DNA of 64,000 bases from Citrus sinensis (Eukaryota; Streptophyta; Magnoliopsida; Sapindales; Rutaceae), in assembly GCF_022201045.2 (NCBI RefSeq), contig NC_068560.1:38155001-38219000 (forward strand). Direction: 5' to 3'. Within the stretch, counting starts at the first letter, position 1. The number at the start of each line of letters is the position of its first letter. The notes below the pieces were generated by a model, which worked only from the letters and a program-made list of their open reading frames with translations, made no database searches and had not been told where the DNA came from. Both the position numbers and the translations under genes were made by a program. Shown here one piece after another: positions 4,090-57,975 of the stretch.

Positions 4090-7000
4090 CTATGAGACTG
4101 TAAACGCACTAGATGCACCCGTGAAGTAGTGATTTGTAGAATTAACTGCTTTCTTAGATGACCCAAAATGCCGTAGCCGATAAACTCCGGGGATAGCCTT
4201 CGTCGGCACTTCCCATTCAATGGTTGCTAAGCCATGGAAACTAGTATTCTCCAAACTCCACTTGAAATACAGGGAGAAATCGTCATCGTCATAAACCGGA
4301 ATCCATCGCTTCCCCTGAAGCATTTCAACCACAGCATATGTTCCTTCTGTTAACAGATCATACCTAGGGTTGGCACTCCAAAATGTGGCACTTGGTCTAT
4401 CGCCCTTGTTAAATGAACCGTCTTTTGGTTGATTGATATCTTCCTTTATGTCACCAAACATTTTGCCTGCCGGAGGCGAGTCTCCGGTTGGGTTTAGTGA
4501 AAGGCTGAGTTGCACGGATGAAAGATCCGGTGGCGAAGGACCCTTCGTGGTTTTTTCTCCTTTTGCCATTGCTTGTGCTAATTTTTTGAATTCTTGAATG
4601 TATGCTGGCAATGTGTGGGGTCCGTAAAGCGTTGACGCAGCCTGCAGCACATATCATTTTGGCATCGATCGATGTGATTAGAATAGAATTTCTTCCGTCA
4701 AATCCTAAAAGATTTTTCTTATTTAATTTATTTTAATTTGGAATAAGTACCTCATATCGTTGATGTGCGTATTCTTCGAATGTTGCAATGTATTGTGAAT
4801 AAGCGTTTGTAAGTCCTGCTATTACGATGTGGGTGTCATTATCAAATTCCCCATTTCCATTATTTATTAGAGTGTCCTTAACTGCTTCCCGTAATCTTCG
4901 ACCCGCCATTGTTGTAAACTCTGCACTTTCAAATAGTTAAATCTTGCCCCACAACAGAATATTAATCACAGTTTCTTTGAAGCTAAACTATACTTGTTAT
5001 TAAAAGAAAAAGTTTAACCCATTTACTAAAAGCAAAGCTATACATACACCATTTTGATAAATAGAGAAGGAATTTGCGTATAACTGAGCTAACCTCCCGG
5101 TACAGAAAGTATGATAAGCTTTCCCAACCTCAGAATTTGAATTGGGAGAACCGCTGGCTGCATTGATATCAGAAATATGATTATCAGAAAATGTTCTTTT
5201 AAGCTGCCAAATTGCTGTCTAATAACTTTATTTTCTTTTGGCTCGGAGTTTCCAAGATTAGCAAATTCATGCACAAGAAAAATTCAGCACGTTACCGCCC
5301 ATGCATAAGGTTCAAACATTTCGCCGGAGGATAGCAGAACAGCCTTTGGCTTTTGACATTCCTCCTGATACTGGCTTGGCTTTTTCAATACGTCCCTCAA
5401 CTGTTTCCACAGCTTATTGATCTAAAAACATTAAATAACGAGACAAAAAAATCACGGGTTTAAATACCTTGTTCATTTAACCAAAAAGAAAAAGATCTAT
5501 TGACAATCAAATGCCTGAATCGGTGAGCCCTGACCTCTGTATCACCTTGTTGAAAACCAAACACACCAGGTCCATCTGTAGTTCCGGCGGCGAACCCTGG
5601 GCCTAGGGCTGCAGGGCAAGTCTTGACTGTGTTGTTTCCTGTTCCATCCAATCCAACCTCAATATTTGTGAAGTTTATGTAGACATGACGATAATCAATC
5701 TTTCCGCTCAATTGATCGGTTGCAGAATTGAATAAATCAACAGCCTTTTGGAATTGCCTTTCTCCTATTATCTTTGTGCTTAATATTTCGTCTGGATACC
5801 TGTTAAAATAGTTACAGATTAGTTTAACATGTTGAGCAAAAAATTCATTAGTTTCTTTGAATGAATTGATATATTAGTACCCAGGTCCACGGCCTATGCA
5901 GAGCTGGTCATCGCCATGACATGATGAGTGATTGAAGTCACAAGGCTTTCCACTATCAATGCAAAATGCTCCTAGCACATTTGGGGTCACATCTCCAACA
6001 TTTGATTGGCAAAACGCTCCCACAAATAGCGATCCATCGTTCTTCCTCACTTTGAATCCTTGGCTTGTTGTTTTTCCACATTGCTGTCCTCCAGTGGCCT
6101 TGATTGTTTTCGATTTCTCCATCAATTTGCCAATATCTATTTCAAATGAATACTGCACATGAGTTAAATCTCGCAGTGATCATGGAATCCTAATTTGAAC
6201 AAAAATGAAATCAAGATTTTTCTTGCAACATGGACATCTATTCATCTAGTTGGAAGCTGCCGTTTCAGCTACAAATTTTGAATGCCCAAGGTGTTTGATA
6301 TGTATTGTTAACAATAACCGAATGGGTTAAAAGTTACAGCACCCTATCCCGACCCGAACGGCTCTTCTGTGTTAAAACAACTTACCCGATGAGGTAGAAA
6401 ACTTACTGGTTGTTATGGAGGAAGATTCGTTTTTGGAACTGAACCAGTCTTCAAAGAACCTGGCAGCAGCGCCCTTGTTGTCTCCGCTGATGAGCAAATT
6501 GTCTCTGGACATAGAGGTGCCGTGTGTAGCATACCAATTGAAGGCTCCTATGCTCTTCCCGCTTGCTGCATCAACAAATTTCAGAAGGGTCATTTCTTTG
6601 TCAACGTTTTCTGGGTATCGAGCCCTCTCCTCCGCTGGATTAAGCAGATATGCACTTGGACTCCTGTTTATTCCAGCATTTTCTACGTCCCCTGAAGCAT
6701 AAACAAGACAAATGACATGGAAATCATTTTGTTAATTTGCTTAAGGATATCGATTCAATGCATGCGCAAACACCTTCAAAACTGAACACTGACCTTTTCT
6801 AATGAAAATTGAACCAGGCTTTAAATTGTTGTGAGCCTGAACAATGCTCTGGACAATTGCGGAAACAATGGCATCAAACGATTGTTGGACAAATCCTAGA
6901 GACGTGATAGAGTAAATCAAGTACTGCAAGTAACCCCCAGGTCCGGCATGAGTATGGATTCCACTGATTGCTATGTTCTCTTCAGTATACAAATTTCCAA

Positions 7001-54339: not shown

Positions 54340-55593
54340 CCAATTGGAGAAATTAGTCGTTTTCCCCTATTAGTTGTTTCATTTCCAATTAACGAATATG
54401 GCTCCACAGTTTTTGCCACTGCAACATGGGCCAATGGTCCCTGCTCCTCTGTCAGATGGGCCCCTTCTGAAGCTGCCATTTGGGCTTCCAGTGCCCACAA
54501 TCGAGTACGTTTGCCATGATGTAAGCGTAAATAACGTTTAAAGTTATAGGATTTTGATCATACGTGTCAATCTTTCATTAGTGGATTATGTTGTGAGACT
54601 CATAACTTCGCCATTGAAATGGTGACACGTGTCCCATCGTGCACTATGGAGCAAGTAGAAATATATATTTATAAAAATAAGTACGTTATATTACTACAAT
54701 GAGTGTAACTTCAAATTCAATTTTAAAAGAGGACACACTATGTAATGAATAATGTTATAAATATTAAAATAGTGCGAATTTTAGTATAAAAAGCATAAAA
54801 GACCAAAAGAAAATTATCTTGTAGTGAATTTTTTTTTTTTGGGTCTTCTAATGATGACGTTATATTTTTTTATGTACAGGTAAGTAACCTATGACAAGAT
54901 ATGTAGCCATGCCGCCCATGCATGTGAACGCAGCTGTAACTTGTTAGGTTTTCATTTCGTTTTATTTCTTTGAGATTGTGGGGGTCATTTTAAGCAACTA
55001 TTTTTCTTGAAATTTGACCATTTAATCATGCCGACACCATGTTACAAGTCTACAAGTTCTTCCAGTACTGGTCCCTCATGAATGGTGATGGCCCTCAAAT
55101 TGTGTACAATTGGTCCATGATATGCAGAGACCCAGCCAGAAAGCCTAAAACTTCAAAGTTGAAACCCCAGTGATTCCATCTTTTTATTTGTATTGTATGG
55201 TTTGGAATTCACAATCCACCTCGAGGTTCATCCTCTGCTGAGTTTTGGATCAAATGGTCCCAATCGATAATGTGCCACGTTTACGTGAAAACGACTCAGT
55301 GATAGTGATGGTAATCATTTCAATTTAAAACAAACATATAGAGCAACGATCAGATAATAGTTTTTTTTGTCCAAATATTGAAGATGGCCTACTCATCGAG
55401 CCTATTCCCATTCAATCTTATAAGCTTGGGCCTAAATGCACCCAAAAATGTTCATGGTACAACAAGCTTTGCTTACTCATCTGTCTCATCATCATTCATT
55501 ATACGCACTGTATAATCATGTCACGTGTGTGTATTTTATCTCTCTTAAATCATGTTTGTGTGCAGGGGCGGATCTGCTCCACAGGCCACATGG
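53913..55593. other. Intergenic, no gene seen
   Basis: Holds a TA microsatellite at 54309-54337 and a GC-richer patch near 54395-54510 with no family match. Around 55564-55580 the phrase CAGGGGCGGATCTG looks like one end of a hAT element whose other end I did not find. Confidence 0.45.
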
Positions 55594-55719
55594 CTGTAGT
55601 TTGGGAAATTTACACTAATAACCATAAAAATTTTAGTTTTTTTCATCTTAACCCCTCAAACAAATTTCTATCAACATTAGCCATAAAAGAACCGTTGAGA
55701 CCAAATTACCCTTCTCTCT

Positions 55720-56094
55720 CATCTCCCTTTCCTCTTCCTCTTGCCTTCTTCTCTCCAGTTCTCTATTAATTTCAACATCCACCTCTTTCTTCTTCTTCTC
55801 TCTCCTATAATCCTCGTAATCGTTCGGTCTAGCGGGGTCGTGCTCCTCGATTACGGTCGAAGTCACGTCGACCAATGCCGGTTGCGGCATCGCTACCACG
55901 TCGTCGGGGGAAGGTGCGATTGCAGGTGAGGAATGGAGTCTAGTCGGGAGAGAATTTTGGGTGGTTTTGGGTTTGGATTGGGGCTTGAGGATGGTTTGTG
56001 GTGGCGCGAAAATTGACCAGACAGTGGTGGTCGTGTTGGTGGGTTTGTCCTCATCGGAGGGTGGAGGTAGGTATCCGTACAGCCCGCCTAGCAT
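55720..56094 (-). pseudogene. Captured 5' coding part of a DRT111/SPF45-like splicing factor
   Basis: The minus-strand frame starts MLGGLYGYLPPPSDEDKP, continues SIFAPPQTILKPQSKPK, then ALVDVTSTVIEEHDPARPND, YEDYRREKKKKE and ELERRRQEEEEREMREKG. This order and wording match my recollection of the N-terminal third of plant DRT111 (SFPS, SPF45-like splicing factor), which lacks only the G-patch and RRM. It ends in the TIR, where the frame runs on for about 16 residues and stops at 55648. With no domain for RNA binding, a product would be a truncated protein. The frame is intact over 148 residues, so capture may be fairly recent. Confidence 0.85.
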
Positions 56095-56304
56095 TTCGCA
56101 ACGTGGCTTTTGATGGAAAATCCCGGGGAATTTGAATTCCGAAATTGGATTTTAGAGAATTAAAAAGCTGATTTTGTTTTGTTGTTTGGGTTGTCTGATG
56201 AGATTCGATCTGAGGTAGAAGAAGATATTACATACGAATAAGAAGAGACGAACAAAGACGAAAGGACTGGCGAAAACAAACAAATACTGAGGTAGAAGAA
56301 GGCA

Positions 56305-56496
56305 ACCTGTCGCACCAAGGCATGGTGCGACAGGTTGCCTGTCGCACCAAAGTTTGGTGCGACAGGTGCCTGTCGCACCAAGGCATGGTGCGACAGGTGC
56401 CTGTCGCAGCAAAGTGTGGTGCGGCAGGTGCCGGTCGCACCAAAGCTTAGTGCGACAGGTGCCTGTCGCACCAAGACTTGGGCCTGTCGCACCAAG
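56305..56496. repeat. Tandem array of 31-bp palindromic units
   Basis: About five full and one partial copies of a unit of the form GCCTGTCGCACCA (A/N)n TGGTGCGACAGGT. Each unit is an inverted repeat with 12- to 13-bp arms; centre bases vary (GGCA, AGTT, AGTG). The array is inside the Pack-MULE, between the captured fragment and the right TIR. Confidence 0.9.
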
Positions 56497-57975
56497 TTTC
56501 TTTTCGTTTGTAAAGAAGGGTAATTTGGGGAGAAAAGCGTGTGTTTGGCTAATGTTGATAGAAAAAAGTTGAGAGGGTTAATTCGAAAAATAGTAAAAAT
56601 TTTATGGTTATTTTCGTAAATTTCCCCTGTAGTTTCCACTTTCCAGTAGCATGTGCAAGCCTATTAGCGGCATGAAAATTTAATTTATATGCCATTGCTT
56701 GAGCTGCATCACAAAGTTTTTCTTCTTTCTTTTTAATTTTCGAATCAAAATCGATTGGGTACAGAAAATTGTAGCTTGAATATTGTAACTTTTCACTTCA
56801 ATTTGCATTTTATACACAATATGATTTTCGTATTCACTTACAAATAGTTCACACGAGAATTCCACAGCAGTTCCTTTCAACAACTGGAATGCAATTGGAG
56901 TAATGACTAGATGTAGCAACATTATCCAAGTTCTAACAAGGGCGTAGACTAATATGAAAGCATATTCAGAAGGGAAACTCTGCTTTTGACAAGTCGACTA
57001 TACACTCTCTCTAACCCATTGTCAAGATCCTGAAGGCTTAGTTCTACTGCCTCCAGGGGCTTCAGCAAACTCTGCAATTGCTCATAACTTGTGCTCTTGC
57101 TCAGCTTCTGACTGTTTAAAATTTCCATGTCTTCTTTTCTGAATCGCATGCTCCACTTTTCGATCGTATCGATTTTGACACAAAAAATCAGCTGTGCCCT
57201 GCTTTAATCTAGTCTTTGTTGTGCGCAGAATGCGAAATCAAGTTCACCAAATAATTACATAAAAATAAAGAATATAAAATTTTACGTGATTTAGTAATTT
57301 TACTTACGTTCACGGGAGCAAAAGAAATAATTGTATTATTAACAATTATTAAAGTACAATATTTGAGTAAAGAAAACAACAATACTATATGAACAAAGGG
57401 CCGACAAATATGGTAGTACCCGCTGCCGTTTTTATAGGTCTCACTTCTGTTTCTCTTTTTGTTTAAAAAAATTAAAATAAAATATTAAAATAATGAAAAA
57501 GTAACGTAAAAGTAACGAAAATGAAACTTTAGAAGAAGAAAGTAATGACAAAAAGCTACTTCTGTTCCATCAGCTCCATTATCCCCCTAATCGGATGAAG
57601 CCAAATCCGACGAACTCATATATGTGTTTGCATTAACAGAAGAAAAATGAAATAGAACCAACATTCGGAGATTTGAATTTGGTGCCAAAGACCACACCAA
57701 CAACGTTGATGAAATTGTAGTAGGATAATTGGTAACTTTTAGTTTCCCATTACATTCAAATAAAATTAATTTTTGGTTGTGTTCTATATATTTAAATTGT
57801 TAGAATTTTTTTCAATTTAAATTGTTAGAATTTTTTCAATTTAAATTGTTAGAAAGTGATGGATTAAATTTGTAAAAATTCCTGGATGTGTGCGTCTTAT
57901 ATATCTAAATTGTTATGATTTTTTTTTTCACTTTGAATTGATAGAAAGTAATGGATGGGGACAAGTGGAGAAAGG

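Follow-up and report, generated by a model that had tools for sequence, protein, structure and literature searches.

How did the beginning of a splicing-factor gene come to lie between the ends of a transposable element in Citrus sinensis, and does it do anything there? We address this question for a 1,024-bp unit at positions 55603-56626 of the window, by which we mean the whole 64,000-nucleotide stretch of DNA that was analysed. The answer that we consider highly likely is that the unit is a Pack-MULE with a passenger gene piece, amplified after one capture. With a known parent, 37 elements that apparently stem from one capture, a recent burst, and further host DNA in four sisters, it is a well-replicated case of gene capture, in which the many copies allow selection on the carried frame to be asked about directly; none shows here. 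We found no description of this element in the open-access literature, as judged by titles and abstract openings in partial listings.

The unit is a non-autonomous Mutator-like element, and its coordinates are exact (Table 1). An earlier note on this DNA, made from the letters alone, had drawn the same interval and described a Mutator-like element with TIRs of about 110 bp and a perfect 9-bp duplication; we find the identical boundaries, TIRs of 113 bp and the same 9 bp on both sides. The two ends of the window copy are only 75% identical to each other, and the left TIR recurs at 100% identity in 12 of 41 cases among the matches listed, the window's own counted. Between the ends lies a captured piece of 577 bp (55713-56289), which overlaps the left TIR by 3 bp. 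The last 21 codons of the minus-strand frame, together with its stop, also lie within that TIR, and the uninterrupted frame of 148 residues running into the TIR is present as previously described. The captured upstream part is leader, perhaps with a portion of promoter. Here the first description needs extending: the in-frame fragment with its MLGGLYG start stands, but its parent-like part has 127 codons rather than 120, and the capture includes, besides the coding start, 195 nt before the ATG and a 45-bp in-frame deletion. Similarly, TIRs and cargo had been placed correctly, but some 220 bp of palindromic 31-bp repeats beyond the cargo had gone unmentioned.

Table 1. Features of the element and its flanks, in window coordinates
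Feature	Positions	Strand	Description
TSD, left copy	55594-55602		9 bp, CTGTAGTTT, identical to 56627-56635
Left TIR	55603-55715	+	113 bp, 85 of 113 positions match the right end
Open frame	55648-56094	-	148 codons from ATG: 127 parent-like codons and 21 TIR-encoded residues
Captured SPF45/DRT111-type coding part	55713-56094	-	127 codons (+1 nt), starts MLGGLYG
Captured sequence 5' of parental ATG	56095-56289	-	195 nt
CTGAGGTAGAAGAAG	56287-56301		Repeats 56210-56224 in direct orientation; lies at the right capture junction
Stretch adjoining right TIR	56290-56513		Mostly palindromic 31-bp tandem repeats of the CCTGTCGCACCAAnnnTTGGTGCGACAGG type
Right TIR	56514-56626	-	113 bp, imperfect inverted match to left TIR
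TSD, right copy	56627-56635		9 bp, CTGTAGTTT, perfect duplicate of left copy

Pfam detected no transposase domain in six frames, each of 92-167 residues and entirely or largely inside the element (the 148-codon frame alone, its 167-residue stop-to-stop version and four others). The 148-residue frame itself yielded no Pfam domain (best E 0.032, below the cut-off) and no solved-structure relative, and plasmid records contained no match to the element. Nor was a known structured RNA recognised: 55500-56750 gave no Rfam match at gathering score. The Pack-MULE assignment follows the definition of these elements as non-autonomous MULEs with gene fragments (PMC4858842): long TIRs of 113 bp and a 9-bp TSD mark a MULE, the scanned frames contain no transposase of its own, and the carried fragment comes from a host gene whose own locus is free of these TIRs.

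The earlier note had proposed searching the same genome for the parent, and the search succeeded: the parent lies on contig C2 (locus L039, C2:27993162-27993784) without these TIRs, and over the 9.9 kb surrounding it the only TIR matches are of 13 and 15 bp, which is chance level. Its frame begins MLGGLYGDLPPPSDEDKP, and residues 213-253 form a G-patch domain (E 4.1e-17). About 1.3 kb downstream of this G-patch frame is a frame encoding an RRM; among solved structures it is most similar to three Splicing factor 45 chains (E 1.8e-25), and next to PUF60-type chains (4.7e-18). This pairing of a G-patch with a Splicing factor 45-like RRM bears out the recognition of the fragment as the start of a DRT111/SPF45 gene; DRT111 is the name of the plant gene of SPF45 type. 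The capture corresponds to L039:4663-5285 and consists of two blocks, 4663-4967 and 5008-5285, each 94% identical to the parent, of which the second continues into the leader. They are split by the 45-bp in-frame deletion, which lies between TTGAC repeats. The captured piece is intronless, and either DNA or a transcript may have been its source. It stops at parental residue 142, ahead of both the G-patch and the RRM, neither of which it contains.

We searched the same assembly (300 Mb, 11 contigs) for further copies. Counting the window's, 30 copies contain most or all of the unit; 17 are full length and contiguous, and the other 13 are split into pieces. A 126-codon protein query gave 40 matches, which came to 36 elements once two pieces of the parent were removed and pieces merged; one more (L046), detected by DNA comparison, brings the number with at least part of the fragment to 37. 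For sequence-level comparison we cut out 37 elements, namely 36 fragment carriers (L043, of which one end only was seen, was left out) and one fragment-free element, L042. A perfect 9-bp TSD flanks 33 of the 37 cut-out elements, the window copy among them, although one of these TSDs is a run of T; the four without a perfect TSD are L020, L029, L031 and L034.

The copies agree in how the gene piece is joined to the element. All 36 fragment-carrying cut-out elements have the left capture junction in common (28-32 of 32 bases), and of 32 copies, 31 retain 27 bases or more out of 32 at the right junction, the other (L028) keeping 19. Every one of the 32 aligned copies has the 45-bp deletion, enclosed in L047 by a larger one. 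The parental base survives in no copy at 23 positions; the change is C > T or G > A at 12 of them. There was apparently a single capture, followed by amplification to 37 elements. At the right junction, the 15-bp repeat of leader sequence suggests template switching, as far as the letters can indicate.

A tree of 30 copies, drawn without support values, consists of an old comb together with a single clade of 14 copies, among them the window copy. This clade is a recent burst. We compared the window copy with the 13 other burst copies: the copy at C3:18626261 shows 0 differences in 800 core positions and 4 over all 1,024, and that at C3:18568258 shows 1 and 11, respectively. In one copy, L041, a 1.85-kb insertion (L041:1435-3286) is repeat-like and occurs at many other places. 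As a candidate for a further gene capture it was dropped, having 63 matches, several of them nearly full length, and thus behaving as a repeat.

Does the carried frame make anything? The 148-codon frame could yield a truncated SPF45 N-terminus with a TIR-encoded tail, acting as a decoy or microprotein; the earlier note had raised the decoy idea. Of 32 copies, 23 have the frame open from the parental start codon. Among six types of short coding indel, all but one (-4) preserve the reading frame (-45, -3, +3, -12 and -81), and this might point to a degree of constraint. No such constraint shows in the codon test. Counting changes by parsimony on the 30-copy tree, with copies pooled (selection in a single copy could escape such a test), we find 107 coding changes outside the burst, of which 60 replace an amino acid, 7 create a stop and 40 are silent. 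The silent share of 37% compares with a neutral expectation of 34% from the same mutation spectrum (p 0.26), or 33% with the leader's spectrum (p 0.18), and the 7 stops with 4.4 expected (4.5 with the leader's spectrum). Within the burst there are 10 replacement and 3 silent changes (3 of 13 silent), and on its stem 3 and 1 (1 of 4). Coding sites change at 0.325 per site and leader sites at 0.301. The frame does not depart from neutrality, and purifying selection on its parent-like part, the mark of a domesticated Pack-MULE gene, was not detected in the pooled copies of this tree.

Of the 23 intact frames, 13 belong to young burst copies; the frame is broken in the other 9 of 32 copies by a stop, a frameshift, a lost start or an insertion. 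On the passenger reading, the window copy's frame is open because that copy is young. In addition, a transcript from the right TIR of the window copy would meet three upstream ATGs, opening frames of 52, 31 and 1 codons, and protein output is unlikely because these and the hairpin stretch precede the main ATG. With purifying selection undetected, neither a G-patch nor an RRM in the fragment and 9 of 32 frames broken, we reject the decoy protein on the selection test and the absent domains, and regard a decoy or microprotein as scarcely credible.

The base changes themselves have a distinct pattern. In the captured block, C > T and G > A changes per C/G site amount to 0.81 in CG (55 in 68), 1.03 in CHG (38 in 37) and 0.23 in CHH (41 in 175). 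This CG- and CHG-favoured C-to-T scar suggests, from base changes, that the copies were long silenced and probably methylated in CG and CHG. The passenger reading, which we hold to be highly likely, runs as follows. An ancestral MULE took in, once and between its TIRs, the upstream sequence and first codons of an SPF45/DRT111-type gene, presumably by gap repair or template switching. A transposase from elsewhere would have mobilised the unit in trans, giving rise to the 37 elements and the recent burst of 14. In the older copies, the frame decays roughly as fast as neutrality predicts, and its C-to-T pattern resembles that of silenced, methylated DNA, methylation being the probable cause of the bias.

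The copies may also be a source of small RNAs. Transcripts from the TIRs, made double-stranded with the aid of the palindromes, could yield siRNAs against the parental leader and first codons that tune or lower expression of the parent gene. Such siRNAs could match the parent because perfect 21-mers are common to it and the window copy: those of the window copy cover 383 of the 623 parental bases, and those of any of the 37 cut-out elements cover 461 of 623. The very stable hairpins in the repeat stretch and the C-to-T scar in CG and CHG contexts point the same way. In maize, gene-capturing elements, Pack-MULEs among them, are reported as sources of siRNAs against their donor genes, and reviews add that essential donors may be spared (PMC13317346, PMC8616336). 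However, the parent's captured coding part has a CpG observed/expected ratio of 0.94 (leader, 1.19) versus 0.69 in the uncaptured remainder of the frame, the opposite of the trace that lasting methylation would leave; this is a weak measure, because six copies checked, scarred ones included, still stand at 0.77-0.91.

Nor do the rates of change clearly indicate that similarity to the parent is being maintained. Captured sites have 0.32 changes per site (184 in 577) versus 0.39 at TIR sites (88 in 226; p 0.14), and the left TIR, at 0.27, lies below the captured sites. Camouflage, that is, selection keeping the parent match, was rejected on the same comparison, since the slowing is not significant and the left TIR is slower still. 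An antisense or small-RNA effect on the parent, which the earlier note had also raised, is possible on these matches, yet we judge it unlikely that supplying siRNAs against the parent is what explains the copies. The family is well suited to testing whether captured sequence affects its donor via small RNAs.

A regulatory role for the captured upstream part can be considered alongside. It would supply promoter or 5'UTR function, the copies being mainly mobile regulatory sequence for neighbouring genes; the 195 nt 5' of the parental ATG are indeed carried, but change has been about equally fast at leader and coding sites, and we consider this reading highly improbable. We prefer the passenger reading over it. 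As an observation apart, the right TIR has changed nearly twice as fast as the left, with 57 versus 31 changes, each in 113 sites (30 copies).

The stretch between cargo and right TIR contains the palindromic 31-bp repeats (56306-56510 in the window), whose count differs between copies; exact half-sites of each kind number 0-10 per element. Folded as RNA, 56290-56513 reaches -138.8 kcal/mol (z -13), a value that none of 200 shuffles equalled. Across the genome, the palindrome motif is present at 64 places; 50 of these were listed, and 29 of the 50 fall outside the 36 element intervals used in the comparison. It is conceivable, and in our view very doubtful, that the palindromes make this MULE lineage both an unusually prolific capturer, first of the DRT111-type gene and then of further donors in the four sisters, and a source of double-stranded RNA, bringing the 5' region of a splicing regulator under transposon small-RNA control. 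If true, dozens of copies would exert such transposon-derived control over it. The family is equally suited to testing whether palindromes adjoining an end promote capture or amplification.

Four sister elements contain other host DNA, 98% identical to loci elsewhere. In L040, L044 and L045, both capture edges are kept (parent ~4662-4869 and 5245-5278), and the middle and the start codon are lost; L046 retains parent 4662-4730 and 5069-5161 and has 890 bp that are 98% identical to C8:812964-813852. From their absence among the TIR matches listed, we infer that the 98% identical loci are donors rather than further copies of the element. Between their capture edges, L044:935-2968 and L045:953-3420 carry about 1 kb of DNA with 98% identity to C5:21133574-21134585, in a 150-kb region that has at least four similar stretches (C5:21.13-21.28 Mb). 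L040 (L040:1062-3066) instead contains pieces 98% identical to C2:31352581-31353566 and to C9:18585553-18585805, and part of the former also has a 98% match at C6:19254062-19254265. One frame of L040 has a weak likeness to the start of ABCB transporters (E 4e-4), with no ABCB-type Pfam match in that frame.

The ends belong to a larger MULE family, and the palindromes probably do too, since the palindrome motif occurs outside the elements and a 27-bp terminal pattern, at no more than 2 mismatches, has 559 matches (271 and 288 by strand) with 0 for the reversed control. An autonomous partner with the same TIRs and a MURA-type transposase was not found among the 150 of 899 transposase candidates scored and the 100 of 559 TIR ends listed. 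This result, like the 75% identity between the ends of the window copy, weighs against the reading that we prefer. A by-eye comparison placed two of the listed TIR ends some 12.7 kb away from PF10551 matches on C5, where rough arithmetic gives about 1 such pair by chance.

How does the family compare with known ones? Like the Pack-MULEs of rice and other plants, it is non-autonomous, with long TIRs, a 9-bp TSD and an identified parent, and some elements have several donors (PMC4858842). Unlike the others described there, it has one capture in 37 elements and palindromic tandem repeats between cargo and right TIR (PMC4858842). A parallel comes from tomato, where the PM-ZIBP Pack-MULE family has one captured gene fragment in many copies, 13 with tandem TIRs and one with a single pair; within one tomato TIR family, single-TIR elements have 1 to 14 copies (mean 3) and one tandem-TIR type has 29 (PMC3310237). 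Thirty-seven is therefore many, but of the same kind, multi-copy MULE families being already known (PMC3310237). Tandem TIRs are linked to amplification in PM-ZIBP (PMC3310237), whereas at the window copy no tandem TIR was seen and a palindromic repeat lies beside the right end. In citrus, CitMule of clementine is also a MULE with 9-bp TSDs, A/T-rich in its case, but a 7-kb one with its own transposase and short degenerate TIRs, unlike the window element; this comparison is by description (PMC4334395). A MULE-MuDR sequence is reported at citrus promoter variants (PMC12577126). Lastly, the fragment-free element L042 (L042:1991-3036) has ends 88-89% similar and one palindrome remnant, and carries no DRT111-type piece.
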